Below, piece by piece: positions 19,676 to 64,000 of a DNA stretch of 64,000 nucleotides (position 1 is the first letter of the stretch; every line of letters begins with the position of its first letter). This DNA comes from Streptomyces sp. NRRL S-31. GTDB lineage: Bacteria > Actinomycetota > Actinomycetes > Streptomycetales > Streptomycetaceae. The translations under genes and the position numbers were made by a program. The stretch spans positions 1-64,000 of the forward strand of contig NZ_JOCB01000020.1 in the NCBI RefSeq assembly GCF_000718775.1, in the 5' to 3' direction. The notes below the pieces were generated by a model. That model saw only the letters and a list, made by a program, of their open reading frames with translations, did no database searches and had not been told where the DNA came from.

Positions 19676-19676
19676 C

Positions 19677-21911: not shown

Positions 21912-22711
21912 GGGAGCAGCCAATCGACGGGGTGCTGGTCGGCGAGGTGGACGGAGCCGGTGGCGAGGGTCATGGAGTCGAGCCGGAACGGCGGCCCGCC
22001 GGCGGAGGACCACCGGTAACCGCTCTTCGTGGCCGACGGGTCGAGCCGCACCAGCACGGCCACCGGCCGGCCCTTGCGGGTGAACTGCTCGCCGAGCTGG
22101 CTGTCGCCGAGGAACGCGGCGATCGACTGGGCGGACTGCGCGGTGCGGTCCACCGACGTCACCTCGCCGCGCAGCACGCCGTACCGCTCCGTCGGCACGG
22201 ACGACACCGTCAGGTCGACGGAGGCGTGCGCCGGGATGGCGGCGGCGTTCTCGGCGGGCACGTACACCGTCGCGTACAGCGGGTCGGAGCGGTGGGCCAC
22301 CTTCTCGACCGCGGCGACCGTGGTGCCGGTTCGGATGATCTGCCCGATGTCGGCGGCGAGCGTGGTCACCCGGCCCGCCGCGACGGTGCGGATCACGGAT
22401 GTGCCCCGCGCCGTACGGACCTTGAGGACCGGCGCGTTCGCCGGCAGGCGTGCGCCCTGCCGGGTGAGTACGGCCGTCACCTGGCCGGACACCGGACTCT
22501 GGAGCAGATAACTGCCCTGTCCGTGGGTGAGGATGGCCGGCGCGCCGACGGTGGAGGCGACCGAGCCGGTCACCGCCCACACGGCGGCGACGGCCATGAC
22601 GACGACGGTGAGGCCGAGCACGAGCCAGCCCTGCGGGCGGGCGAGCCGTACCGGAAGGTCCAGCTCCTCCGGCGACTGGAGCTTGGCGAGGGCCTGTTGG
22701 CGGAACTGCAC
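21908..22711 (-). CDS. HlyD-like secretion adaptor of the NHLP export system
   Basis: A 267-residue protein. A short cytoplasmic N-terminus is followed by one transmembrane helix (about 29-51, GWLVLGLTVVVMAVAAVWAV), then an extracytoplasmic biotinyl-lipoyl-like domain (YLLQSPVSGQVTAVL and VAAGRVTTLAADIGQIIRTG). It is shorter than Gram-negative HlyD proteins and lacks the long coiled coil, as expected in a Gram-positive host without an outer membrane. It would join the C39 ABC exporter to guide the peptide across the wall. GTG 22711 is preceded by GAGGGAAG. Its end overlaps the exporter start by 4 bases. Confidence 0.85.
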   Translation of the reverse strand: MQFRQQALAKLQSPEELDLPVRLARPQGWLVLGLTVVVMAVAAVWAVTGSVASTVGAPAILTHGQGSYLLQSPVSGQVTAVLTRQGARLPANAPVLKVRTARGTSVIRTVAAGRVTTLAADIGQIIRTGTTVAAVEKVAHRSDPLYATVYVPAENAAAIPAHASVDLTVSSVPTERYGVLRGEVTSVDRTAQSAQSIAAFLGDSQLGEQFTRKGRPVAVLVRLDPSATKSGYRWSSAGGPPFRLDSMTLATGSVHLADQHPVDWLLP

Positions 22712-23548: not shown

Positions 23549-23935
23549 TCAGCCCAGGATCGCCTGGACCGTGCTCGCCCGGGCGGCCTCGCTCAACGTG
23601 ACGTCCGCGAACGCCATCCGCCGGCCCGGCTTCGTCGGCACCGCTTCGACCAGGACGTCCGCACCGGTCACCGCCCGCTGGAACGAGGTCGACTGCCGCA
23701 CCGTCGTCATCGGGACGAAGCCGCCCCGGGCGGCCGGGACCGCGATCACCGTCGCCGTGTCGGCCGCCGCCATCAGCGCCTGTCCCGACAGTCCGCCGCC
23801 CTCCCGGGCGAGCCGGTCCGACCACGGCAGACGCGGCACCGCCCGGCCCTCGCCCACCGCCTGGACGGTCAGCCCCGGTTCGAGCACCCAGGGGGTGAAG
23901 CGGGCGGCGAGGATCTCGTCGGCGCCCATCGTCAT
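23549..23935 (-). CDS. PaaI-type hotdog-fold thioesterase
   Basis: A 128-residue hotdog-fold protein. The signature GGGLSGQALMAAADTATVIA covers the catalytic helix region of PaaI/4HBT enzymes, followed by the strand PMTTVRQSTSFQRAVTGADVL. Such enzymes hydrolyse acyl-CoA or acyl-carrier thioesters. The start is uncertain: ATG 23935 or ATG 23929 gives a protein beginning just ahead of the fold, while the frame is open further upstream and no clear Shine-Dalgarno is visible. It lies between the peptide cassette and the NRPS cluster and need not belong to either. Confidence 0.8.
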   Translation of the reverse strand: MTMGADEILAARFTPWVLEPGLTVQAVGEGRAVPRLPWSDRLAREGGGLSGQALMAAADTATVIAVPAARGGFVPMTTVRQSTSFQRAVTGADVLVEAVPTKPGRRMAFADVTLSEAARASTVQAILG

Positions 23936-25134: not shown

Positions 25135-26343
25135 GTGACAGGCAAGCAATCGACGGGGGAACGCCTCCTCCTGGACGAGTTACCCGACCGCTGGCGCGGC
25201 TTACGCGAGGCCGGGCCGGTGCGGTACGACGAGACGCAGCGCGTCTGGCGGGTGCTGGACCACGAGACCGTCGCCGCCGTGCTCGCCGACCCGGCGACGT
25301 ACTCCTCGGAACTCTCCGCCCTCGCCCCCACCCAGTCCGACTTCGAGACCTTCACCCAGGGCAACTTCGTCGGCATGGACCCGCCGGAGCACCGGGGGCT
25401 CCGTACCCTGGTGAGCCAGGCGTTCACCCCGCGGGTCGTGCACGGGCTCGGCCCCCGCATCGAGGCCGTGTGCGCCCGGCTGCTGGACGCCGTGGCCGAC
25501 CGCGACCGGTTCGACCTGATCGACGCGCTGGCCTATCCGCTGCCGATCATCGTGATCGCGGAACTGCTCGGCATCCCGGCCGAGGAGCACCGGCTCTTCC
25601 AGGAGTGGGCGAGCGTCCTGTTCGGCGGCGACCAGCTCGGCGAGGCGCCCGACATGGCCGACCTGGAGCGGGCGCTGGAGGCCATCGCCCCCACCGTGCG
25701 CGAGATGAACGGCTACATGCTGGAGCACATCCGCGCCCGCCGTGCCGCCCCCGGGGACGATCTGACCAGCAGACTCATCGCCGCCGAGGTGGACGGGGTC
25801 CGCCTCGCCGACCAGGAGATGGTCGGCTTCGTGGCCCTGCTGCTGGTGGCGGGGCACATCACCACGACCGCGCTGCTGGGCAACGCGGTCGTCACCTTCG
25901 ACCGGCACCCCGGCACCGACGCCGCGCTGCGCGCCGACCCGGCGCGCATCCCGGCCGCCGTCGAAGAGGTGCTGCGCTGGCTGCCGCCCTTCCCCGAACT
26001 GGGCCGGCGGGTCACCCGGCCGGTGGTCCTCGGCGGCCATGAAATCCCGGCCGACACACTGTTGATGGCCCATCTGGGCGCTGCCAACCGGGACCCCGCC
26101 CGGTTCGCCGCACCCGACGTCTTCGACCCGACGCGGAACCCCAATCCGCATCTGACCTTCGGGCACGGCATCCACTTCTGTTTCGGCGCGCCGCTGGCCC
26201 GGCTCGAGGCGCGGATCGCGCTGCGGATGTTGCATGAACGATTCCGCATCCTGGCGATCCCCTCCTACGAGGACATCGTCCACCAGAACCCCGCCGTCAT
26301 CGTCGGCGTCCGCCACCTGCCCGTCGAGGTCGTCAGACCCTAG
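25135..26343 (+). CDS. Cytochrome P450 of the NRPS cluster
   Basis: A 402-residue soluble bacterial P450. I-helix oxygen-activation motif AGHITT (239-244), K-helix EEVLRW (ExxR), and haem loop [18 protein letters not shown] with the thiolate ligand Cys349. In NRPS clusters such enzymes hydroxylate the beta-carbon of carrier-bound residues or oxidise the finished peptide; the class here cannot be fixed from sequence, and no ferredoxin is adjacent. Codons 16 (25180-25182) and 23 (25201-25203) are TTA, the rare leucine codon read by the bldA tRNA, so translation should depend on developmental bldA expression. It is probably the first gene of the cluster transcript. Confidence 0.93.
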
Positions 26344-26439: not shown

Positions 26440-27789
26440 ATGCCGTACACCATCCCCGCCGCTCCGGCCGCCTCCCGGACGCCGTCCCTCTTACACCGGG
26501 ACCTACAGGAACGCCTCGGCGCCCTCGCCCGGACCCACCGGGTGCCCGGCGCCCAACTCGCCGTCGACACCGGCACCGACGTCATCGCCGTGCACACGGG
26601 TACGGCCGACGTCACGACCGGCAGCCCCGTCACCGCGGACACCGCGGTCCCGCTGGGCTCGCTGACCAAGCCCTACACCGCCGCGCTCGTCATGCTCCTG
26701 GCCGACGACGGCGACCTCGAACTGGACGAACCGGCCTCCGAACACCTCCCCGAGCTGGCCGGCACGCCCGAGGTGACGATACGTCAGCTGCTCAGTCACA
26801 CCGGCGGACTGCCCACCGGACCCGACTCGGACACCGCCGCCGCGACCACCGCCGCGCGCTACCTCACGGCCGTCTGCACCGCCCGCGACCTGCTCTTCAC
26901 GCCGGGGACCGACTTCTCCTACTCCAACGCCGGTTACGTGGCCGCCGGACGGCTGGTGGAGACCGCCACCGGCATGCCGTGGCCCGAGGCCGTGCGGGCG
27001 CTGCTCCTGGAACCCCTCGGCATCCGGCCCGCGTTCGTCGGCGACGCCGCGCCGGTCCGTCCGGTGGCCGCGGGACACGCCGTCAACACCGCCACCGGAC
27101 AGGCCGTCGCCGCCCGGCAGAACCTGGCGCCGCTGGAGGCGCCGGCCGGCGCGCTGCTCGCCGGCGCACTGGACCTCGCCGCGTTCGGCGCCGCGCTGAC
27201 CGGCCGCTCCGACCTGCTGCCGCCCGCCGTCACCAAGGAGATGCGCAGGCCCGAGCCCGCCGCCCGCCCGGGCACCCTCGCCGACGGCTGGGGCCTCGGC
27301 GTCGCCCTCTACCAGCGCGACGGCCGGGTGTGGTGCGGCCACGACGGCAACGCCCAGGGCACCTCCTGCCATCTGCGCGCCGACCCGGAGAGCGGTGTCG
27401 TGGTCGCCTTCACGGGCAACGCCGGAGGCGCCACCGCGCTCTGGCGCGACCTCGCCGAGGAGCTGGACCGGCTCACCGGCATCCGGGTGCCCGCCGCCGA
27501 CGTCCCGGACCGCGGCCGTCCCGTCGAGTTGCCCGACTGCGCGGGCACCTACCGCAACGGCACCACGGCCTACCGCATCGCGCCCGGACCGGACGGCACG
27601 CCGGCACTGTCCGTGGACGGCGACCTGGCCCTGCCGCTGGTCTGCTACGCCGACCTCTCCTGCGATCTGCGCGATCCGGCCACCGGACGCCTCGAACCCG
27701 GCGGCCGGTTCCACCGCGATCCGGCCACCGGCAGGATCGACCGGGTGCAGATATCCGGGCGCACGGCACGCCGCACCGACGACGGCTGA
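26440..27789 (+). CDS. Beta-lactamase-fold serine hydrolase, candidate trans-acting PBP-type thioesterase
   Basis: A 449-residue protein with the penicillin-binding-protein/class C lactamase triad: SxxK as SLTK (Ser74, Lys77), YxN as YSN (161-163) and HDG (301-303). After about residue 340 comes a second, beta-rich lipocalin-like domain ([18 protein letters not shown]...). No signal peptide is evident, so it is probably cytosolic. This two-domain layout, length and position beside an NRPS resemble the stand-alone PBP-type thioesterases (SurE group) that release and head-to-tail cyclise peptides. A D-amino-acid peptidase or esterase is the alternative. Codon 18 (26491-26493) is TTA. A 96-base gap follows the P450; GGGAG precedes ATG 26440. 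Confidence 0.8.
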
Positions 27790-28178
27790 GCCACCGGGTC
27801 GGGATTCCGCCCCCGGCGACCGTCGCTCCCGGGCTCCGGCCCGGTGCCGACGGCCGGTCCCGACCCGCCCACGGCAGCGGTGTCCCGCAGCGGCCCCCGT
27901 CGGACCCGACGGCGGACCGCTCACCGGGCGGTCTCCGTGCCGTGGGAACGCGGGCCCGGGAGCCTCCCGACGACCGGCACCCGCCCCTCGGGCCGCCCGC
28001 CCGCGCCCCAGCCGACCCAGCCGCACCGGGACACCCCCGGCCCACCGCACCGCCGCACCGTCGCGCACCCCCGGCGTGTCACGCCCGATCCAGCGCACCG
28101 CCCCCCCCGGGGGGGGCGGGGCCGGAGCCGGCCGCGTGGCCCGCGCCGCATCGTCCCGCTCTCCAAAGGACTTCACCC
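27790..28178. promoter_or_regulatory. Intergenic leader of NRPS1 with C8G8 palindrome
   Basis: 389 bases without a believable gene; the only open frame is Pro/Arg-rich and overlaps the NRPS1 start. A perfect 22-base palindrome made of C8 followed by G8, flanked by CCG and CGG, lies at 28098-28119, about 60 bases upstream of the NRPS1 start. AAAGGA (28165-28170) is the NRPS1 Shine-Dalgarno. Confidence 0.6.
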
Positions 28179-46937
<18,759 letters not shown>

Positions 46938-46950
46938 GGATCCGACGACC

Positions 46951-49900
46951 ATGACGTCTTCGACCCCTTCGCACCCCTCCGGTTCGGAGCAGCCTTCCGG
47001 CTCCGGGCGGCCCTCCGGTTCCGCGCAGGCTTCCGGTTCCGCCGAGCAGTCCACCGGCTCGGGCCAGCCTTCAGGCTCGGGCCAGCCTTCCGGCCCCGCG
47101 CAGCCCACCGGTTCCGCCGCGCAGCCCACCGGTTCCGCGCAGCCCGCCACCCCCGCGCAGTCCTCCCGGCCGGCTCGGCCCTCGCGGCGTGATCGTGCCG
47201 AGGCGCTGCCCGAGGAGTTGCGGGAGGCGTTGCGGCGGCGGCTCGCCGGGCGGGCCGGTGGCGCCGCCCCGGCCGCCCGGCAGGGCATCCCGCGCGCCGA
47301 CCGGGACCGCCCGCTCCCGCTGTCCTTCGCGCAGCAGCGCCTGTGGTTCCTGGACCGGCTGCGGCCCGGCGACGCCCGCTACAACAGCGCGGTGGCCGTC
47401 CGTCTCACCGGCACGCCGGACCACCGGGCACTGAGCGCGGCCCTGGCCGCCGTGGTGGCCCGGCACGAGGCCCTGCGCACCACCTTCGAGGAGACCGACG
47501 GCCGCCCCGCGCAGCGCGTGCACCCGGCGGGCGAGGTGCCGCTGCCGGTGCGGGACGCCGGCGACCTGGACGCGGAGCTGCTGGCCGAGTACTCCCGCCC
47601 CTTCGACCTCAGGCAGGGGCCCCTGCTGCGCGCCGTGCTGCTGCGCGAGTCGGCGGCCTCGCACGTCCTGCTGCTGACGGCCCACCACATCGTCACCGAC
47701 GGCTGGTCCATGGGCGTGGTCCTCGACGAGCTGTGCACCGCCTACGACGCCCTCGCGCGGGGCGCCGCGCCGGAACTGCCGCCGGTGGCCACGCAGTACC
47801 CGGACTTCGCGGTGTGGCAGCGCGCCCAGCTCTCGGGCCCCCGCCTGGAGAGCCGGCTCGCCCACTGGAGGGAGCGGCTGGCCGGCGCGTCGGCACCCGA
47901 GCTGCCCCTGGACCGGCCGCGGCGCGGCGAGGAGGCGGGGGCGGGCGCCGTCCACACCTTCGCCGTCCCGGCCCGCCTCGCCACGCGCCTGCGCGACCTC
48001 GCCGCCGAGCGGCACGGCACCCTGCACACCGCCCTGGTCGCCGCCGTCCAGGCGCTGCTGGCCCGCTGGTCCGGCCAGGACGACATCACCGTCGGCTCCC
48101 TCACCCCCGGCCGCGCCCGCACCGACCTCGAACGGACCGTCGGGTTCTTCGTGAACACCGTCGTGCTGCGCACCCCGGTGGACGCCGCCGGGTCCTTCCG
48201 CGATCTGCTGGGGCGGGCGGCCGAGACGGTGGGCGACGCCTTCGCCCACGGCGACACGCCGTTCGAGCGGATCGTGGAGGCGGTGGGCGCCCCCCGCGAG
48301 GCCGGCCGCAACCCGCTGTTCGACGTGATGGTCCTGCTGCACCCCGACCCGCCCGCCGCGACCGCCCCGCACGGGCTCGCCACCACCGCGGTCACCGTGC
48401 CCCGGCAGGCCGCCACCTTCGACCTGAGCATCGAGTTCGTACCGGACGGGGACGGGCTGACCGGTCTGCTGGAGTACCGCACCGACCTGTTCGACGCGGC
48501 CACGGCCGAGCGGATGGCCGGACAGCTGCTGCGCCTGCTGGAGGGCGCCTGCGCCACCCCCGACCGCCCGCTGGGCGCCCTGCCCCTGCTGACCGGGGAG
48601 GAGACCCGGCGGGTCCTGCGCGACTGGAACCCCGCCCCGCTCCCCGTGGCCGGCACCACCCACCCCGAGCTGTTCGAGCGCCGCGCGGCCCGCACCCCCG
48701 ACGCCCCCGCCCTCGTCGCCGACGGCGAACGGCTGGACCACGCCGCCCTCAACGCCCGCGCCAACCGGCTCGCCCACCACCTCATCGCCCTCGGCGCCGG
48801 CGCCGAGGACCTGGTCGCGCTGCGGCTGCCGCGCACCGCCGACATGATCGTCGCGATCCTCGCCGTGTGGAAGTCCGGCGCCGGCTACCTCCCGCTGGAC
48901 CCGGCGCTGCCCGAGGAGCGGGTCCGGTTCCTGCTGGACGACGCCCGCCCGGCCCTGGTGCTGGACGAGGCGGCCCTCGGCGCCGTGCCCGCGACCGCCC
49001 CGGACACCGATCCGACCGACGCCGACCGGCGCGCCCCGCTGGACCCGGACCACACCGCGTACGTCATCTACACCTCCGGTTCCACCGGCCGCCCCAAGGG
49101 CGTCGTGGTGTCCCACCGCTCCGCCCTCCACCTGCTCGCCGCCCACCGGGCCGGCTTCGTCGCCGAGGCGGGCGGCGGCCCGCTGCGGGTCGCGCTCACC
49201 GCCTCGTTCTCCTTCGACACCTCCCTCGAAGGGGTGCTGCTGCTGGCCGACGGCCACCCGCTGCACCTGGTCGACGAGACCACCCGGATGGACCCGGCCG
49301 CCCTCGTCGAGTACGTCGTCGAGCACCGGATCGACTTCCTCGACGTCACCCCCTCCTACCTGCGGCAGCTGCTGCCCGCCGGACTGCTCACCGACCCCCG
49401 GCACCACCCCCGGGTGCTCATGCTCGGCGGCGAGGCGATCGACCCCGCGCTCTGGCGGGAACTGGCCGCCCACCCCGACGTGGCCGCCCACAACTTCTAC
49501 GGCCCCACCGAATGCACGGTCGACGCGCTGTCCTGCCGCGTCGACGGCGGCGACCGCCCGCTGGTCGGCCGCCCCCTGCCGGGCGTGCGCGCCTACGTGC
49601 TGGACGCCCGGCTCCAGCCGGTGCCGCCCGGCGTCGGCGGCGAGCTGTACCTGGCGGGCGCGCAGCTCGCCCGGGGCTACGCCGGCCGGCCGGGCCTGAC
49701 CGCGGCCCGCTTCCTGCCCGACCCGTTCGCGGCGCCGGGGGAGCGGATGTACCGCACCGGCGACCTGGCCCGCTGGACCGCCGACGGCCGCCTCGACTAC
49801 CTGGGCCGCGCCGACGACCAGATCAAGGTGCGCGGCCACCGCGTCGAGCCCGGCGAGATCGAGGCCGCCCTGCTCGCGCTGCCCGACGTCACCGCCGCCG

Positions 49901-52900
49901 CGGTCGTCGCCGTCCCCGACCGGCACGGCCACACCCGGCTCGCCGCGTACGTCGTCCCCGTGCCCGGCGCACCCCGGCCGGCCCCCGCCGACCTGCGCGC
50001 GGCCCTGCTCCGCGTGCTGCCCGACGCCCTCGTCCCCTCCTCGTACACCACGCTGGACGCGCTGCCGCTGACCTCCAACGGCAAGCTGGACCGCCGCGCC
50101 CTGCCGGAGCCCGGGAACACCGCGGACGAACGGGAGTTCACCGCCCCGCGCACCCCCGACGAGGAGACCCTGGCCGGCATCTGGGCCGAGGTGCTCGGGG
50201 TGGCCCGGGTGGGTGTCACGGACAACTTCTTCGAGCTGGGCGGCGACTCGATCCTGAGCATCCAGGCCGTCTCCCGGGCCCGCGCCGCGGGCCTGCGCAT
50301 CGGCTCCCAGGACGTCTTCCGGCACCAGACGATCGCCGACCTGGCCGCCGCCGCGTCCCGCCGCACCGCCGCCGTACCCGCCCCCCGGCGCCCGCACCGG
50401 GACGGGCCCGCCCCGCTCGGTGCCGTCCAGGAGTGGTTCCTCGCCACCCACGGGCCGCTGCGGCACTTCAGCATGTCGATGCTGCTCGACCTGCCGTACG
50501 ACCTCGACGAGCGGGCCCTGGAACGGGCGCTGGACGCCGTGGTGGCCCGCCACCCGGCCCTGCGCACCCGCTTCACCCGCACCGACGGCACCTGGCGGCA
50601 GCACCCCGGCACCGGCCCGGCCGGCGGGCTGCTGACCCGGTACGGCGCCGACACCCCGCCCGCCGAGGCCGCCAGCGCCGCCCGCGCGGCCCTGGACCCG
50701 GGCACCGGCGCCCTGCTGCGCGCGGCCCTGCTGACCGGCGGGGAACGCCCGCGCCTGTTCCTCACCGCCCACCACCTCGCCGTCGACAGCGTCTCCTGGC
50801 GCATCCTGCTCGCCGGCCTGGAGACGGCCTACCGGCAGGCGGCGGCCGGCGAGGAGCCCCGGCCGGAGCCCGAACACACCCCGTTCGCCGACTGGGCCCG
50901 TGCCCTGGCCGAACGGGTCCGGGCCGGCGACCTCGACGACGACGAGCCCTACTGGACGCGGGAGGCCGCCCTGCCGCGCACCCCGCTCCCCGTCGACCTC
51001 CCCGGCACCCCGCTCGCCGGGACCGTGCGCACCGTGCGCACCCGGGTGGACCGGGACACCACCGGGGCGCTGCTGCGCCGGGTGCCGGCCGCGTACCGCA
51101 CCCAGGTCAACGACGTGCTGCTGAGCGCGCTCGGCCGGGTGCTGGCCGACTGGACGGGCGCCGACCGGGTGACCGTCGCGCTGGAGGGCCACGGCCGGGA
51201 GGAGGACCTGGCCGAGGGCGCCGACCTGTCCCGCACGGTCGGCTGGTTCACCACCCAGTACCCGGTCACCCTGACCCCGGCGGGCCCGGAGGACTGGGGC
51301 GCCACCCTCAAGTCCGTCAAGGAACGGCTGCGGGCCGTGCCCCGGCGCGGCCTGGGCTACCAGGCTCTCGGGCACCTCGGCTCGCCCCGGCCCCAGGCCC
51401 GCGCCCTCGGCGGACCGCCGCTGCCCCAGGTGTGCTTCACCTACCACGGGCAGTGGGAGGCGCCCGGCGGCGGGGACTTCGCCCCGGTCGCCGACGTACC
51501 CGGCCGGGACACGGACCCCGCCGCCCCGCTGGACCACCTGCTCGACGTGTCCGCCCTGGTGGCCGACGGCGAGCTGGAGATCACCTGGCACTACAGCGAC
51601 CAGGTGCACCGGGAGGACACCGTACGGGAGCTGGCCGCGGGCATGGTGCGGGCGCTGGCCGCCATCGCCGAGCACTGCGCCCGCCCCGGCGCGGGCGGCC
51701 GCACCCCCTCCGACTTCCCGCTGGCCCGGCTGGACCAGGCCGGGGTGGACCGCCTGGCCGGCGACGGCCGGGACGTCGAGGACCTGCTGCCGCTCACCCC
51801 GCTCCAGGAGGGCATGCTCTTCCACCGGCTGGTCGGCGGACCGGACGACGTGTACGTCGACCAGGCCGCGCTGCTGCTGGACGGGGTCACCGACCCCGAC
51901 GCCCTCGCCCTCGCCTGGCAGCGGGTCACCGACCGCACCCCCGCCCTGCGCACCTCGGTGGTCTGGGAGGGCGTGCCGGTGCCGCTCCAGGTCGTGCACC
52001 GCCACGTCACCGTGCCCGTCACCCACGCGGACTGGCGCGAACTCGACCCGGCGGAACGGGCCGAACGGCTGGACCGGCTGCGCGCCGACGACCTCGCACG
52101 CGGCCTCGACCTCGGCACGGCACCCCTGATGCGGCTCACCCTGGTCCGGCTCCCCGACGCCCGGTTGCACCTGCTGTGGACCTCCCACCACCTGATCCTG
52201 GACGGCTGGAGCCTCGCCCAGGTGCTCACCGACGTGTTCGAGGAGTACGCGGCGCTCACCGCCGGCACCGCGCCCCGGCCCCCGGCACGCCGGCCGTTCG
52301 GCGATTACGTGCGCTGGCTGGCCGGCCAGGACTCCGACGCCGCGCACGCGCACTGGCGGGCCGTCCTCGACGGGTTCGCCACCCCCACCCCGCTGCCCGT
52401 CGACCGCGTCCGGCGCCCCGGGCACGAGACCCGGTCCGCGGGCGTGCACACGGCCGGGCTGTCCGACGAGGTCTCCGCGCGGCTGGCCCGCACCGCCCGG
52501 GCGGCCGGGCTCACCCTCGGCACCGTGGTGCAGGGCGCCTGGGCGCTGCTGCTGTCCCGCTACAGCGCCGAGCCGGACGTGCTGTTCGGGACCACCGTCT
52601 CCGGCCGTCCCGACGACCTGCCCGGCGCCGAGTCCATGGTGGGCATGTTCATCAACACCCTGCCCACCCGCGTCCGCGTCGACGGCGGCCGGACCGCCGC
52701 CGCCTGGCTCGCCCGGCTCCAGGAGGAGCAGGCGTGGGCACGCCGGTACGCGGCGGTGTCCCTCGCCGAACTGACCTCGCTGAGCGACGTGCCGGCCGGC
52801 AGCCCGCTGTTCGACAGCATGGTGGCCTTCGAGAACTACCCCTTCGACGAGGCGCGTTCGGCCGTGACGGGGCTGCGCCTGGCGGACGTCTCCTCCCGCG

Positions 52901-55900
52901 ACGCCACCAACTACCCGCTCGTGCTGCGGGCGTTCCAGGGCGAGCGGTTCGGCTTCGACCTCGCCTACGACCCGGAGCTGTTCGACGCCGCGACCGTGCG
53001 CGACCTCGCCGGCCGGCTGTGCCTGCTCCTCACCGAGCTGGCCGACGACCCGCACCGGCCCGTGCGCGACCTCGCCTGGACCACCGCCGAGGAGCGGCGG
53101 CGGATGCTGACCGACTGGAACGGCACCGAGCGGGGCCGGCCCGCCGACACCCTGGACGCCCTGTTCGCCGCCCAGGCCGCCCGCACCCCCGGCGCCGAGG
53201 CCGTCACCTGCGGCGCCGAACGGCTCGACTACGCCACCCTGGACGCGCGGGCGGGCCGCCTCGCGCACCGGCTCGCCGAACTCGGCGCCGGACCCGAGAC
53301 GTTCGTCGCCCTCGCGCTGCCCCGCTCCGCCGACCTCGTCGTCGCCGTCCTCGCCGTCCTCAAGGCCGGCGCCGCCTACCTGCCCATCGACCCCGGGCTG
53401 CCCGCGGAGCGGATCCGGCACCTGCTCGCCGACGCGGGACCGGTCGCGCTGGTCACCACCCGGCGGACCGAGTCCGGCCCGGAGGTGCCCCGGCTGCTGC
53501 TGGACGACCCGGACGTGCGCGCCGACCTGGCCCGCCGCCCGGCCGCCGGCCCGCCCCGGCGCGCCCTGCCCGACAGCCCCGCCTACGCCATCTTCACCTC
53601 CGGCTCCACCGGCCGCCCCAAGGGCGTCGTCGTCCCGCACGCCAACGTGGTCCGGCTGTTCACCCGCACCCGGCACTGGTTCGGCTTCGGACCCGACGAC
53701 GTGTGGACGCTGTTCCACTCCTACGCCTTCGACTTCTCGGTGTGGGAGCTGTGGGGACCGCTGCTGCACGGCGGACGGCTCGTCATCGTCCCCGAGGACA
53801 CCGCCCGCTCCCCGGAGGACTTCCTGCGCCTGCTCGCCGACGAGCGGGTCACCGTCCTCAACCAGACCCCGTCCGCGTTCTACCCGCTGATCCGGGCGGA
53901 CGCCGAACTGCGGGACGTCGGCGACCGGCTGGCGCTGCGCACGGTGATCTTCGGCGGCGAGGCGCTGGACGTGGGCAGGCTCGCCGACTGGTACGCCCGC
54001 CACCCCGACACCGCGCCCCGCCTGGTGAACATGTACGGCATCACCGAGACCACCGTGCACGTCACCCACGCCGGGCTGGACCGCTCCACCGCCCGCCCGG
54101 CCGCCGCGAGCCCCATCGGCACCGGCATCCCCGACCTGCGGCTCTACGTCCTCGACGACACCCTGAAGCCGGTACCGCCGGGCGCCGTCGGCGAACTGTT
54201 CGTGGCCGGCGAGGGCCTGGCGCGCGGCTATCTGAACCGGCCCGGCCTCACCGCCGCCCGCTTCCCCGCCGACCCCTTCGGCCGGCCCGGCACCCGCATG
54301 TACCGCACCGGGGACCGGGCCCGGTGGCGGGCCGACGGCACCCTGGAGTACCTGGGCCGCGCCGACCAGCAGGTGAAGATCCGCGGCTACCGCATCGAAC
54401 CCGGCGAGATCGAGGCCGCCCTGCACGGCCACCCGGGCGTCGGCGCGGCCACCGTGGGCGTCTACGAGGACACCGCCGGGACCCGCCGGCTCGTCGCCCA
54501 CGTCGTCGGCACCGGCGCCGCCGAGCCCCCGTCCGCCGCCGAACTCCGCGCCCACCTCGAAGGACTGCTGCCCGCGCACATGGTGCCGGCCGCCTACGTG
54601 CCGATGGCCGCGCTGCCGCTCACCGTCAACGGCAAGCTCGACCGGCGCGCCCTGCCCGCGCCCGGCCCCGACGGCTTCGCCGCCGACGGCACGCGCACTC
54701 CGCCGCGCACCCCGGCCGAACACCTGGTCGCCGCCGCCTGGACGGACGTACTGGACACCGACGAGGTCGGCGTCGACGACGACTTCTTCGCCCTCGGCGG
54801 CGACTCCATCCTCGCCGTACGCGTCACCTCCCGGCTGCGCGCCGCCTTCGGCACGGACGTCTCACCCCGGCTGCTGTTCACCCACTCCACGCTCGCCGGC
54901 CTCGCCGCCGCGCTGGGCGAGCCGCGCGCCGGGGACGGCGCCGACACCATCCCGGCCACCGACCCGGACGCCCCGGCGCCGCTGTCGTACGCCCAGCAAC
55001 GCCTGTGGTTCCTCGACCGGTTCGAGCCGGGCAGCACCGAGTACACCACCCTGTCCGCGGTGCGGCTGCGCGGACCGCTCGACACCGCCGCCCTGCGCAC
55101 GGCCCTGGACGGCCTGGTCGCCCGGCACGAGGCACTGCGCACCACGTTCGCCGAACACGACGGCCAGGCCCGGCAGATCGTCCACCCGCCCCGCCCGGTG
55201 GACCTGCCCGTGACGGACCTCGCGGACGCCGCCGCCCTGGACGGCCTGCTGGACCGGGAGGCCGCCACCCCCTTCGACCTGACCACCGGCCCCCTGCTGC
55301 GGGCCCGCCTGGCGCGGCTCGCCGCCGACGAGCACGTCCTCGTCCTGGCCGTGCACCACATCGTCACCGACGGCTGGTCCGTCGGCGTGCTGGGCCGGGA
55401 CCTCGGCGAGCTGTACGCGGCGGCCCTGGCGCGGCGCCGCCCCGAACTGCCCGCACTGCCCGTCAGCTACCGCGACCACGCGGCCTGGCAGCGCTCCCGC
55501 GCCGACCGCGCCGAGGCCGAACTCGCCTACTGGCGCCGGACCCTGGACGGCGTCACCCCGCTGGAGCTGCCCACCGACCGGCCGCGCCCCGCCGTCCGCA
55601 CCCGCGACGGCGCCCTGGTGACGTTCACCCTGCCCGCCGCGCTCACCGAGCGGCTGCGGGACCGCGCCGGGGAGGCCGACGCGACCCTCTACATGACCCT
55701 GGTGGCGGCCTGCCAGGTGCTGCTCGCCCGGTGGGCGGGCACCGAGGACGTCACCGTCGGCACCGTCACCGCCGGCCGGGACCGGGCCGAACTGCACGAC
55801 GTGGTCGGCATGTTCGTCAACACCCTGGTGCTGCGCGGCCGGGTCGGGCCCGAGCTGACCTTCCGCGAGCTGCTCACCGAGGTGCGCGGCACCGTCCTGG

Positions 55901-58900
55901 ACGCGTTCGCCCACCAGGAGGTGCCCTTCGAACGCGTGGTGGACGCCCTCCAGCCCGAGCGGGACACCAGCCGCACCCCGCTGTTCCAGGTGATGGTCGC
56001 CCTGCACAACCTCGGCGCCGAGCCACCCCGGCTGCCCGGCCTGGCGGCGGAGCCGGTGACCCCGCCGGTCCGCACCGCCGCCTTCGACCTCGCCTTCGAC
56101 TTCGTCACCGGCGACGACGGCCTCACCGGACACCTGGAGTACAACACCGGCCTCTTCGACACCGACACCGCCGAACGCCTCGCCGCCCGGCTGCGCGTCC
56201 TGCTGGAGGCCGCAGCCGAGGACCCCGGACAGGCCGTCGGCCGGCTGCCGCTGATGACCGACGAGGAACGCGACCGGGTGCTCCGCCAGGGACAGGGCGC
56301 CCGGCTGCCCGAACCGGAGACCACCTTCCCCGCCCTGTTCGAGGCCCAGGCCGCCCGCACCCCGCGGGACACCGCCCTGGCCGCCCGCGACACCACCCTG
56401 GACTTCGCCGCGCTGAACGAGCGCGCCAACCGGCTCGCCCACCACCTCATCGCCCGGGGCGCCGGCCCCGAACAGGTGGTCGCCGTCCGGCTGCCGCGCA
56501 CCTCCGAGCTGGTGGTGGCGCTGCTCGCGGTCCTCAAGGCGGGCGCCACCCTGCTCTGCCTCGACCCCGGGCTCCCCGCCGAACGCCAGGAGTTCCTGCT
56601 CTCCGACGCCCGCCCGCACACCCTGCTGACCGACCTGGACGCGGTGCCCTGGGACCGGCTGCCCGCCCACGACCCGACCGACGCCGACCGGCTCCGGCCG
56701 CTGCTGCCCTCGCACACCGCCTACCTCGTCTACACCTCCGGCTCCACCGGCCGCCCCAAGGGCGTCGCCGTCGAACACCGGAACCTGGTCAACCTCTGCC
56801 ACGACCACCGCACGCACCTGCTCGCCCCGCACACCGCCGGCGGACGGCGGCTGCGCGCCGCGCTCAGCGCCTCTTTCTCCTTCGACACCTCCTGGGAAGG
56901 ACCGCTGCTCCTCGCCCTCGGCCACGAGGTCCACCTCGTCGACGAGGACGTGCGCCTGGACCCGCGGGCGTTCTGCGACCAGGTCGTCGCGGACCGCCTC
57001 GACCTGGTCAACGTCACCCCGACCTTCCTGCGCGAACTGACCGCCGCCGGCCTGCTCGCGCCCGGCCGCCACCACCCGCGCCTGCTGCTCGTCGGCGGCG
57101 AGGCCGTCACCCCGGCCGGCTGGCGCGAACTGCTGCGCGCCGAACGGGAACAGGGCGTGGCGGTTTACAACATGTACGGACCCACCGAGACCACCGTCGA
57201 CGCCGTCTACGGCCGCTCGGCCGACCGGCCCGACCGCCCGGTCATCGGCCGCCCCGGCGGCAACCTGCGCGCCCACGTGCTCGACGGCGCCCTGCGCCCG
57301 GTGCCGCCCGGGACCCCCGGCGAGCTGTACCTGGCCGGCGCCCAGGTCGCCCGCGGCTATCTGAACCGGCCCGGCCTCACCGCCGCCCGCTTCCTCGCCG
57401 ACCCGTTCGGGGCACCGGGGGAGCGCATGTACCGCACCGGCGACCGGGCCCGCTGGGACCGGGACGGACGGCTGGAGTTCCTGGGCCGGGTGGACGAGCA
57501 GGTCAAGATCCGCGGGTTCCGCGTCGAACCCGGCGAGGTGGAGGCCGCCCTCCTGGAGCACCCGGACGTCACCGACGCCGCGGTCGCCGCCCGGGAACAC
57601 GCCGGCCGCCTCATGCTCGTCGGCTATGTGGTGCCCGCCGCCGGACGCGTCCCGTCCGCCGACGCCCTGCGCCTCGCGCTGCGCCGCACCCTGCCCGACC
57701 ACATGGTGCCCGCCGCCTTCGTCCCGCTCGCCCGCATCCCCCGCACCACCAGCGGCAAGACCGACCGGCGGGCCCTGCCCGCGCCACCCGCGCAGCCCGA
57801 CAGCGCCACCCCCTACGTCGCCCCCCGGCCCGGCACGGAGGAACGCCTGGCGGCGATCTGGGCGGACGTGCTCGGCGTCGAACGCGTCGGCGCCCGCGAC
57901 AACTTCTTCACGCTCGGCGGCGACTCCATCCTGAGCATCCAGATCGTCTCCCGCGCCCGGCAGACCGGACTCGCCCTCACCACCAAGGACGTCTTCCGCC
58001 ACCAGACGGTCGCCGAACTCGCCCTGCGCGCCACCGAGTCGGCCCCGCGGCGGCCCGACGCCGGGGAACCGGCCGAGGCGCCGCTCAGCCCGATCCAGCA
58101 CTGGTACCTGGACGGCCGCGAGCCGGGGCAGCGGCTGCGGTTCACCATGACCCAGCGCCTGGAACTCGCCCCCGGCACCGACGCCCGGGCGCTCCGGGCC
58201 GCCGCCGACGCCCTGGTGCGCCGGCACGCCGCCCTGCGCACCCGGTTCCGCCGCACCGCCGACGGCTGGCGCCAGGAGATCCTGACCGAGGCACCGGACG
58301 GCGTCCTCACCCGCCACCAGGTGGCCGCGCTGCCCGACCCGGAGCTGGAGAACGAGGTCCAGCGGCTCACCGACGAGGCACAGGCCGACCTCGACCCCAC
58401 CACGGGACGGGTCGTCCGCTTCCTGTTCTTCGACCGCGGACCGGAGCGGGCCGGCCAACTGGTCGTCACCGCACACCACCTGGTCGTCGACGGCGTCTCC
58501 TGGCGCATCCTGCTCGCCGACCTGGAGACCGCCCACCGGGCGGCCGCGGCCGGACTGCCCGTCGAACTGCCCGCCCCGGGCACCTCCTTCGGCCACTGGA
58601 CCGCCCGGCTGGAGCGGCACACCCGCGCCGGCGCCCTCGACGCCGACCTGCCGTACTGGCGGGGCACCGGCACCGCACCGGCCGAACTGCCCGCCGGCCG
58701 GCCCGGACCGAACACCCACGGCACCGCCGCCACCCTCACCGTCACCCTCGACCCGGAGACGACCGCCGCGCTGCTGCGCGAGGTCCCGGAGATCTACCGC
58801 ACCCAGGTCAACGACGTCCTGCTCAGCGCCCTCGGCCGCACCCTGGCCCGCTGGTGCGGGCGGGACACGGTGCTGCTCGGCGTGGAGGGGCACGGCCGGG

Positions 58901-61900
58901 AGGAACTGTTCGCGGACGTCGACCTGTCCCGGACCGTCGGCTGGTTCACCGCCGAGTTCCCGCTCGCCCTGCGCGTCGACCCCGACGCCGGCTGGCACGA
59001 CACGCTCCGCTCGGTCAAGGAACAACTGCGCGCCGTGCCGCTGCACGGCCTGAGCCACGGCGCGCTGCGCCACCTGGTGCCCGGTGGCCCGCTCGCCGGG
59101 GCCCCCGCCCCGCGGGTAGGCTTCAACTACCACGGCCGCTGGGACACGGACGGCGGCGGCACCGACGGCCTGCTCCGCGGCGCGCTGCCCCCGGCCGGCC
59201 GGGACACCGACCCCGACGAACCCCGGCCCTACCTCCTGGACATCACCGGCGTGGTCCAGCACGGCCGCCTCGAACTCGGCTGGACCTACCCGCCCGACGT
59301 CTACGACCAGGACACCGTCCGCCGTCTCGCCGAGGACATGCGCACGGCCCTGCGGGAGATCGTGGCGCACTGCGCCGACCCCGGCGCGGGCGGCCGGACC
59401 CCCTCCGACTTCCCCCTCGCCGGCCTCGGCCAGGACCAGCTGGACCGGCTCGTCGGCACCGGCCGGGACGTCGAGGACGTGCTGCCGCTCACCCCGCTCC
59501 AGTCCGGCATGCTCTTCCACGGCCTCGTGGACACCGAGCACGCCTACTTCGACCGCACCGCCGTACGACTGTCCGGGGTGGCCGACCCGCGCGCCTTCGC
59601 CGCCGCCTGGCAGCAGGTCGCCGACCGCACCCCGGCACTGCGCGGCAGCGTCCACTGGCACGGCCTGCCGCACCCGGTCCAGGTGGTCCACCGTCGTGCC
59701 GAACTGCCCGTCACCCACCTCGACTGGCGCGCGCTCCCGCCCGCCGAACGCGCCGAGGCCACCGAACGGCTGCTCGCCGAGGACCGCGCGGCCGGCCTGG
59801 ACCTCACCACCGCGCCGCTCACCCGGCTCACCCTGGCCGCGCTGCCCGGCGACGAGGTGCTGCTGGTGTGGTCCACCCACCACATCGTCCTGGACGGCTG
59901 GAGCACCGGGCAATTGCTCACCGAGGTGTGCGAACGCTACGCCGCGCTCACCGGCGGCCCCGACCCGGCACCCCCGGTCCGGCGGCCCTTCGCGGACTTC
60001 CTGCACTGGCTGGGCGAGCAGGACGGGACGGCGGCCGAACGGCACTGGGCCGACGCCCTCGCCGGGTTCACCGCCCGCACCCCGCTGCCCTACGACCGCA
60101 CGCCCGCCGAGGCGCACCGCGCCCGCTCGGCCGCCGCCGTCCACCACGAACTGGACGCGGAGGTCTCGCGCCGGCTGCGGGAGACGGCCGCCCGCGCCGG
60201 ACTGACCGTCAACACCGTGGTGGAGGGCGCCTGGGCGCTGCTGCTGGCCCGCTCCAGCGGCCGGGACGACGTGGTGTTCGGCACCACCGTCTCCGGCCGC
60301 CCGGCCGAACTGCCCGGCGTCGAGGGCATGATCGGCATGTTCATCAACACCGTGCCGGCCAGGGTCCGGATCCCCGCCGGGCCGGCGCTGCCCTGGCTGC
60401 GCGACCTCCAGGAGCGGCAGAGCGACGCCCGCCGCCACGACTTCCTCGCCCTGCCCCGCATCCAGGCCGTCAGCGACATCCCGTCCGGCGAACCGCTCTT
60501 CGACAGCATGGTGGTCTTCGAGAACTACCCCGTGGACGAGTCGGCGACGGCCCGCACCGGCGTCCGGGTCGAGGAGGTGCGCGCCGACGACGCCACCACC
60601 TTCCCCTGGTGCCTCCGCGCCCACCTGGCCGAACGGCTCGGCTTCGACCTGGCCTACGACCCCGCCCTGTTCGACCCCGGCACCGCCGAGCGCGCCGCGG
60701 ACCGGCTGGCCGCCCTGCTCACCACCCTCGCCGACGGGTTCGACATCCGCCTCGCCGACCTGGACCTGCTCACCCCGGCCGACCGCGAACTGCTCACCGC
60801 CTGGAACCGCACCGCCCGCCGGGCCGCCCCGCCGAGCCCCGTGGACCTGTTCGCCGAGCGGACGCGGCGCACCCCGGACGCGGTCGCGGTGCACGACGGC
60901 GACCGCCGGCTCACCTACCGGGACCTGAGCGACTGGGCACACGCCCTGGCCGCCCGCCTGCTGGCCGGCGGACTGGCCCCCGAGGACCGGGTGGCGCTGC
61001 TGATGGACCGCTCCGCCGAACTGGTCGTCGCCCAGCTCGCGGTCCTCCTGGCCGGCGGCGCCTACGTCCCCGTCGACCCCCGGGCCCCCGAGGAGCGCCG
61101 CCGCGCCCTGCTCGCCCAGGCGGGCGCGACCGTCCGGCTCACCGCCGCCGAGGTGACCGCCGCCCGCGGCACCGCCGCCGAGCGGCCGGTGCCGGCCGCC
61201 GACCCCGACCGGCTGGCGTACGTCATGTTCACCTCCGGCTCCACCGGGCTGCCCAAGGCGGTCGCGGTGCGGCACCGGGACGTGGCGGCGCTGGCCACCG
61301 ACAGCCGGTTCACCGGCGGCGTGTGCGACCGGGTGCTGCTGCACTCGCCGGTCGCCTTCGACGCCGCCACCTTCGAGGTCTGGGCGCCGCTGCTCAACGG
61401 CGGCTGCGTGGTCGTGGCCCCGGACGGGGGCGTCGACGCGGCCGGGCTGCGCCGGCTGGCCGACGGCGGCGGGCTGACCGCGCTGTGGCTCACCGCCGGA
61501 CTGTTCCGACTGCTCGCCCAGGACGCCCCCGACTGCTTCCGGGGCCTCACCCAGGTGTGGACCGGCGGCGACGTCGTACCGGCCCAGGCCGTGCGCCGGG
61601 TGCTGGCCGCCTGCCCCGGACTGACCGTCGTGGACGGCTACGGACCCACCGAGACCACCACCTTCGCCACCTCCCACGCCCTCACCGACCCGGCGGCGGT
61701 ACCCGGCACGATCCCGGTCGGCCGGCCGCTGGACGACATGCGGGTGCACGTCCTCGACGCCCGGCTGCGCCCCGTGCCGCCGGGCTGCGCGGGCGAGCTG
61801 TACCTGGCCGGCGAGGGCGTCGCCCGCGGCTACCTGGGCCGCCCCGGCGACACCGCCGCGCGCTTCCCCGCCGACCCCCTCGGCCCGCCCGGCGCCCGCA

Positions 61901-64000
61901 TGTACCGCACGGGCGACCTGGCCCGGCGGCGGCCGGACGGCACCGTCGAGTTCCTCGGCCGCGCCGACGACCAGGTGAAGATCCGGGGCTTCCGGGTGGA
62001 GCCCGGCGAGGTGGAGGCCGCGCTCGCCGCCCACCCGGACGTGGCGGACGTGGCCGTACTGGCCCGCGAGGACCGGCCGGGCGCCAAACGCCTCGTGGCC
62101 TACGTCGTCGGACCGGCCGCCCAGGACGCCGAGGGCCTGCGGGCCTTCGCCGCCCGTACCCTGCCCGACTACCTCGTCCCCGCCGCCGTCGTCCCGCTCA
62201 CCGTGCTCCCGCTCAGCCGCAACGGCAAGGTCGACCGCGCCGCCCTGCCCGCGCCGGAGGCCCTTGCGGGCCGTGCCCGGGTCGAGCCCCGCACCGACGC
62301 CGAACGCCGCACGGCGGCCGTCTTCGCGGAGGTGCTGGGCAGCGAACCCCCCGGCGTGGAGGACGACTTCTTCCAGCTCGGCGGCGACTCGATCCTCAGC
62401 ATCCGGCTCGCCTCCCGGCTCGCCGAGACCTTCGACACCGACCTCACCCCGCGCGCCGTGTTCGGCCACCCCACACCGGCCGCCCTGGCCCGGCTGCTCG
62501 GCGACCGGCGGGGCTCCGGCCGCCCGGCGCTCGTCCCGGCCGCCCGCGACGCGGTCGCCCCGATGTCCCACGCCCAGCAACGCCTGTGGTTCCTCCACGA
62601 GTTCGAGCCGGGCGGCGCCGAGTACGTCACCGCGCTCGCCCTGCGGCTGCGCGGCCGGCTGGACACCGGCGCGCTCCGCGCGGCCCTCGACGCCGTGGTG
62701 GCCCGGCACGAGTCGCTGCGCACCACCTTCGACAGCGTCGACGGCCACGGCATCCAGCGCGTCCACCCGCCGCGGGAGGTGCCGCTGCCCGTGCACGACC
62801 TGACCGGGCTCGACGGCGCGGAAGCGGAGCGGGAACTGCGCCGGCTGCTCGCCGAGGAGCGCACCCGCCCCTTCGACCTGCGCGAGGGACCGCTGCTGCG
62901 GGCCGCGCTGGTCCGGTGCGCCGAGGACGACCACGTACTCACCCTCGCCCTGCACCACATCGTCACCGACAGCTGGTCCACCGGCGTCCTGCTCGGCGAC
63001 CTCGCCCACCACTACCGCGCCGGACTCGGAGCCGGCCGGCCGGACCTGCCGCCGCTGCCGGTGCAGTACGCCGACTACGCGCACTGGCAGCGCACGGCCG
63101 GTGACGCCGAGGCCGACGAGCACCTCGCCCACTGGAAGGAGCGGCTGGCCGGTCTCGCGCCGCTGGAACTGCCCACCGACCGCCCCCGGCCGCCGGTGCG
63201 CACCAGCGCAGGGGCGACCACCCGGCTGGTGGTGCCCGCCCCGACCGCCCGGCGGCTCACCCGGCTCGCCCGGGACCACGGCACCACCCTGTTCACCACG
63301 CTCGTCGCCGCCGCCCAGGCCTACCTCGCCCGGCTCACCGGCGCCGAGGACATCGCCGTCGGCACCGTCACCTCCGGCCGCGACCGGCCCGAGACCCAGG
63401 CCCTCGTCGGGTTCTTCGTCAACACCCTGGTGCTGCGCTCCCGCGCCGAGGCCCGACGGCCGTTCACCGGGTTCCTCGACGACGTACGGCAGACCGTCCT
63501 CGACGCCTTCGCCCACCAGGACGTGCCGTTCGAACGGGTCGTGGACGAGGTCCAGCCCGTCCGCGACACCAGCCGCAGCCCGCTCTTCCAGGTCATGGTC
63601 GTCCTCCAGAACACCCCGGCCGCCGCGCTCGACCTGCCCGGCCTGGACGTCACCGACGTCGAACCGGAGTCGGACCAGGCCGCGTTCGACCTCACCCTGG
63701 AGTTCGCCGCGACCGGCTCCGGAGCCCTGCACGGCCTGCTCACCTACAACACCGACCTGTTCGACGCGGCCACCGCCGAACGGATGGCCGGACAGCTCGG
63801 CACCCTGCTGCACGCTGTCGCCGAGGACCCCGGCCGCGCCCTCGGCGCGCTGCCGCTGACCTCCGACGACGAGCTGAAGACCCTGCTGGACCAGGGCCGC
63901 GGCGGCTTCCGCCCGGTGCCCGAGACCACCCTGCCCGCCCTGTTCGAAGCGCGGGCGGCCCGTACCCCGGACGCCGTCGCGCTGATCGACGAGGACCGGG
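46951..64000 (+). CDS. Nonribosomal peptide synthetase 2, at least five modules, runs off right edge
   Basis: From ATG 46951 the frame is open to the window end: 5683 residues so far. Layout: a Ser/Pro/Gly/Gln-rich low-complexity N-terminus (1 to about 75) and a basic helix ([20 protein letters not shown]), then C6-A6-PCP6-E6 / C7-A7-PCP7 / C8-A8-PCP8-E8 / C9-A9-PCP9 / C10-A10 (cut). Phosphopantetheine serines: 1100, 2619, 3659 and 5147. C6, C8 and C10 are LCL type; C7 and C9 are DCL, matching the E domains before them. It accepts a pentapeptidyl chain from NRPS1. The terminal modules and release domain are outside the window. A GAGGA overlapping the NRPS1 stop lies about 11 bases before the start. 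No TTA codon was noticed. Confidence 0.96.
47300..51690 (+). other. NRPS2 module 6: C-A-PCP-E
   Basis: C6 ([25 protein letters not shown] from 245) about 47300-48590; A6 about 48655-50110; PCP6 Ser1100; E6 about 50413-51690 with HHLAVDS (1274-1280) in place of HHxxxDG and FTYHGQ in place of FNYLG. Code D-T-E-D-M-G-F-V-D-(K): the Glu/Asp lining predicts a basic substrate (Orn/Arg-type). D configuration expected. Confidence 0.85.
51775..54890 (+). other. NRPS2 module 7: C-A-PCP, threonine
   Basis: C7 ([27 protein letters not shown]) about 51775-53090; A7 about 53145-54660; PCP7 Ser2619. The A core reads [10 protein letters not shown] and [11 protein letters not shown], giving code D-F-W-N-I-G-M-V-H-(K), the classical threonine code, with the YGITE variant typical of Thr domains. 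No E domain: L-Thr. Its hydroxyl could serve in a lactone ring. Confidence 0.88.
54970..59390 (+). other. NRPS2 module 8: C-A-PCP-E
   Basis: C8 ([27 protein letters not shown]) about 54970-56270; A8 about 56325-57790; PCP8 Ser3659; E8 about 58080-59390 ([22 protein letters not shown]). Code D-T-E-N-L-G-M-V-D-(K), related to ornithine-type codes; a basic residue is predicted, D configured. Confidence 0.85.
59475..62490 (+). other. NRPS2 module 9: C-A-PCP
   Basis: C9 ([27 protein letters not shown]) about 59475-60790; A9 about 60835-62250; PCP9 Ser5147. Code D-A-F-W-W-G-G-T-F-(K), one change from module 3; Val-like substrate. No E domain, L configured. Confidence 0.85.
62560..64000 (+). other. 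NRPS2 module 10: C domain and start of A domain (cut)
   Basis: C10 ([17 protein letters not shown]) about 62560-63880 has HHIVTDS (5335-5341), with Ser in place of the motif Gly. A10 begins near 63930 ([19 protein letters not shown]) and is cut at the edge, so its substrate is unknown. Confidence 0.8.

Follow-up and report, generated by a model that had tools for sequence, protein, structure and literature searches.

How is a peptide released from a nonribosomal peptide synthetase (NRPS) line that carries no thioesterase (TE) domain? The question is raised by a 64,000-nucleotide stretch of DNA from Streptomyces sp. NRRL S-31 (hereafter the window), where a hydrolase gene with likeness to the penicillin-binding-protein (PBP)-type thioesterases lies in front of two large NRPS genes. 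The window makes up bases 1–64,000 of a contig of 87,910 bp, and where the sequence of the rest of the contig overlaps it, the two agree exactly; the source genome is 8.74 Mb in size, consists of 322 contigs and is rated 100% complete. All genes of the cluster are on the forward strand, in the order P450, hydrolase, NRPS-A, NRPS-B, MbtH, GNAT acetyltransferase and MFS exporter. The genes that bear on release are the following:

26440–27789, forward strand: candidate PBP-type hydrolase (P0001), a 449-residue open frame (Pfam Beta-lactamase PF00144, E 4.5e-59)
28179–46937, forward strand: NRPS-A, 6252 residues, modules 1–5 (PF00668 matches, motifs and Pfam on the start)
46951–67131 (in the window to 64000), forward strand: NRPS-B, 6726 residues, modules 6–10 (PF00668 matches and motifs)

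This locus is very probably best explained by a thioesterase acting in trans, which would close an L-first, D-last decapeptide head to tail by macrolactamisation. The two synthetases would make one decapeptidyl thioester, colinear with the ten modules, with an unacylated L-residue first and, owing to the terminal epimerization (E) domain, a D-residue on the last peptidyl carrier protein (PCP, or T) domain. The PBP-type thioesterase would take the chain in trans from the last PCP onto Ser74, and the free L N-terminus would attack the D C-terminus, giving a head-to-tail cyclic decapeptide of configuration L-D-D-D-L-D-L-D-L-D; the adjacent P450 would probably oxidise one residue or the product. 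The observed basis comprises the domain order, the missing TE, the enzyme family and the conservation of the locus. By analogy with SurE, we infer the acyl transfer and the ring closure. This mechanism is supported by the domain order, by the residues and by the fact that no other releasing gene is kept with the line.

The domain order of NRPS-A is A-T/C-A-T-E/C-A-T-E/C-A-T-E/C-A-T, and that of NRPS-B is C-A-T-E/C-A-T/C-A-T-E/C-A-T/C-A-T-E, where A and C are adenylation and condensation domains. The line contains 15 condensation-type domains (PF00668), which motifs and a domain tree divide into nine C and six E domains; ten PCP sites were found by motif scans and ten A domains by alignment. 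Nine full modules and the C domain of module 10 lie inside the window. The domains that define the start, the epimerizing modules and the end of the line are located as follows:

28179–30000, forward strand: loading module 1 (A-T, without C or E), residue code DALLIGSIV
33204–34517, forward strand: E domain of module 2 (PF00668 and tree)
37725–39041, forward strand: E domain of module 3 (PF00668 and tree)
42288–43574, forward strand: E domain of module 4 (PF00668 and tree)
50410–51705, forward strand: E domain of module 6 (PF00668 and tree)
58075–59388, forward strand: E domain of module 8 (PF00668 and tree)
62554–63885, forward strand: C domain of module 10; no later domain is complete within the window
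beyond the window, forward strand: A domain of module 10, its PCP at 65617 and the terminal E domain at contig 65770–67116 (PF00668, motifs and Pfam)

Module 10 is of C-A-T-E order and ends at contig 67131, with MbtH as the next gene. Pfam gave two Condensation-type, one AMP-binding and one PP-binding match in this module and no match to any thioesterase family, and the stop codon of NRPS-B is located 15 bases past the last E match. An earlier reading of the window from its letters (the sequence-only reading) had described an NRPS that starts with A-PCP and has at least ten modules and no TE, and had proposed to read the last module to the right of position 64000, where a TE or a cyclising C domain would speak against its inference. 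The whole line contains exactly ten modules, with A-T first and no TE up to contig 67131; it ends in C-A-T-E, and its last domain is an E domain, neither a TE nor a cyclising C. Genome-wide, 63 condensation-type matches were found, 15 of them in this line; several further large NRPS genes are located on contigs C10, C11, C22, C24, C108, C124 and others.

The expected chirality of the chain was read from a tree of 74 condensation-type domains (C and E) taken from five clusters; one C domain of relative G006 was left out, as its motif failed. The tree contains three groups, namely E, C after E and C after non-E, each separated by a branch with support of 97–100; these are values of the Shimodaira–Hasegawa-like approximate likelihood ratio test only, and the program warned that long branches meet. 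Since the acceptor types of the C domains match the pattern of the E domains, the chain should read L-D-D-D-L-D-L-D-L-D. With neither C nor E in module 1, the chain should begin with an unacylated L-residue.

By sequence, the gene at 26440–27789 belongs with the SurE/Ulm16 PBP-type thioesterases. Its residues S74, K77, Y161, N163 and H301 align to S63, K66, Y154, N156 and H305 of SurE and are invariant across P0001 and 29 homologues (chosen from 120 listed); the pocket glycine G237 and the arginine R441 align to G235 and R446 of SurE. In a phmmer search of the PDB, SurE (6ksu; 2.3e-61, 211.5 bits) and Ulm16 (8fek; 2e-47, 165.5 bits) were followed at a distance by 7spn (3.6e-26, 95.5 bits). In the predicted model, the C-terminal domain is lipocalin-like and consists of eight antiparallel strands. 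Ranked by E-value, SurE and Ulm16 also head the Foldseek list; the highest VIA-align Z belongs to SurE (35.9, over 408 residues), in a list where residues past 349 were barely tested. In the hydrolase tree, P0001 lies in a clade of its own (100/100), on the same side as SurE, DsaJ and Ulm16. Taken together, the sequence matches, family models, tree and folds place it with these three rather than with D-peptidases, lactamases or the PF00144 paralogues of the host, and within its own genome P0001 is the only strong match. The 449-residue SxxK/YxN hydrolase with a lipocalin-like C-terminus of the sequence-only reading is therefore borne out by the alignment to SurE and the predicted strands, and the tree which that reading called for turned out in favour of the thioesterases.

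However, several points weigh against assigning P0001 the role of SurE. The identity to SurE is just 36%. The clade of P0001 pairs with the uncharacterised proteins P0240, P0173, P0176 and P0209 (90/90) and lies outside the group of SurE, DsaJ and Ulm16 (96/90); its split from the paralogues and the esterase IS11 is supported at 75/99, with long outgroup branches that, as the program warns, may meet. By Foldseek TM-score, IS11 (0.69) exceeds Ulm16 (0.66) and SurE (0.61–0.64), and its VIA Z is level with that of Ulm16; class C beta-lactamases reach a VIA Z of ∼30 with the N-terminal domain alone. The mean predicted local distance difference test (pLDDT) score of the best model is 76, and the other four models score 52–62.

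We compared the locus with 52 loci of relatives, which came from a scan of named genomes by short patterns; the scan is not exhaustive. Across these loci, the hydrolase is 62–89% identical, and the hosts are Streptomyces, Streptantibioticus and Streptacidiphilus. In 48 of the 52, the hydrolase is followed within 3 kb by a match to the first NRPS module (at least 55% identity, matches of any length; 43 of 52 with matches over more than 60% of the module length), and in the remaining four the sequence covered ends within 600 bases. A chance pairing of hydrolase and NRPS is excluded. Among 295 genomes drawn evenly from the genus, the hydrolase occurs at E ≤ 1e-120 (59–100% identity) in 28, one of which is the source genome. 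A 63% identical hydrolase (L099) is encoded at 56475–57821 of plasmid SNP1 of S. nigrescens (NZ_AP026074.1), a linear plasmid of 1.07 Mb; among 72,556 plasmid records, it is the only one that matches the hydrolase at E ≤ 1e-60.

Ten relatives (G001–G006, G171, G037, G102 and G300) were read at least at the last module, and all ten end in C-A-T-E, with no space for a TE after E. Eight were taken whole. Seven of them have the same pattern of E domains over ten modules, encoded in two frames without a break; here and there the scan missed a motif, for C in G006 and for PCP in G002 and G037. In the eighth, Streptomyces sp. NRRL B-1347 (G005; L079–L081), NRPS-A is divided into two frames of 4111 and 1926 residues and nine A domains were counted; the split is either a sequencing error or a real break. 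The hydrolases of G171 and G102 are ∼58% identical to that of the window by tblastn. The residue codes hardly differ among the nine clusters compared, and their retention despite wide divergence of the enzyme suggests a shared role of the peptide in these bacteria.

The hydrolase could instead be a D-peptidase or a lactamase-like resistance or maturation enzyme, with release left to another enzyme or occurring spontaneously. P0001 is a PF00144 protein, and it aligns weakly to models of class C beta-lactamase and D-aminopeptidase. However, its scores are far below the cut-offs of these models (68.6 versus 415 bits for NF033085; 49.4 versus 443 bits for NF009622), and its extra lipocalin-like domain and its placement with SurE and Ulm16 also argue against such a function. 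For another releasing enzyme, the flanks provide two candidates:

23549–23935, reverse strand: 4HBT (thioesterase superfamily) gene, 128 residues, ∼2.5 kb upstream of the hydrolase
contig 73369: alpha/beta hydrolase gene, 6.2 kb downstream of the NRPS line

Neither is kept with the line. The 4HBT gene is found upstream in 15 of the 52 relatives, and the alpha/beta hydrolase has no match in any of the six relatives whose downstream DNA was covered. We therefore regard this alternative as exceedingly unlikely.

A different outcome would be expected if the PBP-type enzyme mainly hydrolysed the chain: as for surugamide F, the linear decapeptide would then predominate. According to a review, SurE acting on the same N-acetylcysteamine (SNAC) substrate gave cyclosurugamide F in one report and mainly linear surugamide F in another, and the latter counts against ring closure here. 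On the other hand, the L start and the D end are kept in the seven relatives that were read whole with unbroken frames, and in the available text of PMC11735501 the chemistry of the family so far is head-to-tail macrolactamisation only. Hydrolysis as the main outcome is thus improbable, and release by macrolactamisation is the reading followed below.

The residue codes of modules 1–5 are DALLIGSIV, DVFSVAIVY, DAYWWGGTF, DVFSVAIVY and DALLIGSVV, and those of modules 6–10 are DTLDMGFVD, DFWNIGMVH, DTWNLGMVD, DAFWWGGTF and DALLIGSVV. Along the line, the codes pair as 1/5/10, 2/4 and 6/8, with similar Val-type codes at 3/9, in the pattern X-a-V-a-X-b-T-b-V-X; those of modules 5 and 10 are identical. 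In line with this pairing, the A domains with pairwise identities above 60% are A2/A4, A6/A8 and A1 with A5 and A10. The yardstick for the residue positions reproduces the Phe code. DAYWWGGTFK is assigned to Val and DFWNVGMVHK to Thr in the available part of PMC9113097; when six of the codes were sought in print, only DAYWWGGTF (Val) was matched. A study of Streptomyces sp. H-KF8, as far as its text goes, points to Ala at 2/4, Orn at 6/8 and aromatic residues at 5/10 (PMC10788856). The peptide is likely aromatic-Ala-Val-Ala-aromatic-Orn-Thr-Orn-Val-aromatic; among these assignments, Val and Thr have the strongest support. Piperazic acid at 2/4 is unlikely: DVFSVAIVY agrees with the piperazate code DVFSVAAYA(K) in the first six letters and differs in the rest. 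Pfam gave nothing of a piperazate pathway among the scanned neighbouring genes, which cover part of the contig and received no dedicated search.

The gene directly upstream of the hydrolase is probably a tailoring oxidase acting on a residue or on the product:

25135–26343, forward strand: cytochrome P450, 402 residues (Pfam p450, E 3.7e-28)

Its best PDB matches are CYP107B1 and CYP113A1. Given these matches, hydroxylation is likelier than nitration. TxtE-like nitration of Tyr was rejected for this strain: no NO synthase (PF02898) was found in the genome (0/1; the control was positive in 2/14 genomes), and the TxtE model scores 103 bits versus a cut-off of 500. In 47 of the 52 relatives, a P450 directly precedes the hydrolase (at least 60% identity, matches of any length), and at locus L063, where the hydrolase match is split, one was also recognised by eye. 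Loci L040, L055, L056 and L061 are without a close P450 in the upstream stretch covered, and in G171 and G102, the most distant clusters, a P450 (34%) was found downstream, not upstream. In these six, the oxidation may therefore be absent or carried out by another enzyme. The frequent presence of the P450 directly upstream, together with the Thr-like code at residue 7, would also fit closure of the ring via a side chain (e.g. the hydroxyl of the predicted Thr7) or a P450 cross-link rather than from N- to C-terminus alone. However, the PBP-type thioesterases described so far in the available text of PMC11735501 give head-to-tail lactams only, and a cross-link would add to the release step, not replace it; such a closure is very unlikely. 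Going further than head-to-tail release itself, the hydrolase may found a clade of PBP-type cyclases for one fixed decapeptide, nearly unchanged across Streptomyces and relatives, with the P450 cross-linking or hydroxylating residues 1, 5 and 10, which share a code, and a tailored, perhaps bicyclic product that is not yet isolated. This extended proposal is speculative, and we consider it rather unlikely.

The locus resembles the SurE system (6KSU and 6KSV) in the two-domain enzyme, the Ser/Lys/Tyr/Asn/His residues and the pocket Gly, as well as in a TE-less NRPS with an L start and an E domain at its D end; SurE, too, can act on a decapeptide. Different from SurE, P0001 lies in a separate clade on a long branch, and one decapeptide line is present here, compared to the octa- and decapeptide lines of the surugamides. 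Ulm16 (8FEK) and DsaJ belong to the same family by sequence, Ulm16 also by fold; P0001 is 38% identical to DsaJ, and desotamide is a hexapeptide. Ulm16 differs in its hexapeptide substrate (PMC11735501, in part). Tyrocidine-type decapeptides are alike in the expected head-to-tail decapeptide product. According to PMC11735501, TycC uses a TE in cis that links a D-residue at the N-terminus to an L-residue at the C-terminus, whereas the enzyme here would act in trans and with opposite chirality.

The sequence-only reading had proposed a head-to-tail macrocycle of at least ten residues and considered ten residues an unusually large substrate. A head-to-tail ring of ten residues fits, and the remark on size fails. 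As stated in PMC11735501, SurE cyclises not only an octapeptide but also a decapeptide (to cyclosurugamide F) and an undecapeptide of synthetic origin, and it closes longer chains that are non-peptidic. TE-less lines of 4–10 modules with an adjacent SurE homologue were described for 166 organisms among 1421 actinobacterial genomes (PMC7459860, in part). A 2026 paper (PMC13285481) estimates that ∼15% of sequenced strains have such systems and also describes a synthetase with an integrated SurE domain. Owing to cyclosurugamide F and these lines, the ring size is not new; the system is within the known size range, and the kind of enzyme and the kind of cluster are already described. New are the assignment of the cyclase and the depth of conservation. 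In the open-licence papers searched, we found neither an isolated product of this line nor an assay of the hydrolase.

The closest described cluster is NRPS #1.8 of H-KF8, a kinship judged from its published layout rather than from synthetase sequences. As given in the available part of PMC10788856, it contains, in agreement with the line described here, two NRPS genes, ten A domains (one stand-alone) and six E domains, with D-residues at 2, 3, 4, 6, 8 and 10 and Val at 3 and 9. The same text allows that X1 may not be an amino acid; here, the A1 code is nearly that of A5 and A10. Trp is placed at 5 and Tyr at 10 in that paper, whereas codes 5 and 10 are identical here, and a thioesterase domain beside the NRPS genes is mentioned, with the PBP type not named in the available text. 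A 79-kb NRPS cluster with 7% likeness to mannopeptimycin was reported for the H-KF8 genome (PMC5312570, in part) and may be NRPS #1.8; a follow-up paper, as far as available, deals with synthetic peptides (PMC12797237). If the proposed mechanism is true, the H-KF8 cluster can be reread: its first unit should be a normal amino acid whose amine is free, and its releasing enzyme a PBP-type protein. For a widespread Streptomyces cluster, the release mechanism would then be defined and the product could be tested for, a head-to-tail ring of ten with six D-residues; a PBP-type cyclase with a decapeptide as its dedicated natural substrate would be useful for the chemoenzymatic synthesis of larger rings.

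Behind the NRPS line, the cluster continues with three genes:

contig 67275–67478, forward strand: MbtH, after NRPS-B
contig 67613–68206, forward strand: GNAT acetyltransferase, after MbtH
contig 68203–69462, forward strand: MFS exporter, after the GNAT gene

In G001–G006, MbtH and GNAT genes are found downstream in all six and the MFS gene in four. On the other side, two genes for ABC transporters of the NHLP bacteriocin-export type (matches to TIGR03797 and TIGR03796 that exceed the cut-off) and an HlyD-type gene are located at 16847–22711 on the reverse strand. In 15 of the 52 relatives, the same 15 that have the 4HBT gene, the HlyD-type gene precedes the hydrolase by ∼6–9 kb; with this distribution, the export genes look like neighbours rather than members of the cluster. 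Each flank also encodes a phosphatase of the SpoIIE type that contains PAS/GAF and ATPase domains, one at 1401–3779 on the reverse strand and the other at contig 69514–71979 on the forward strand.

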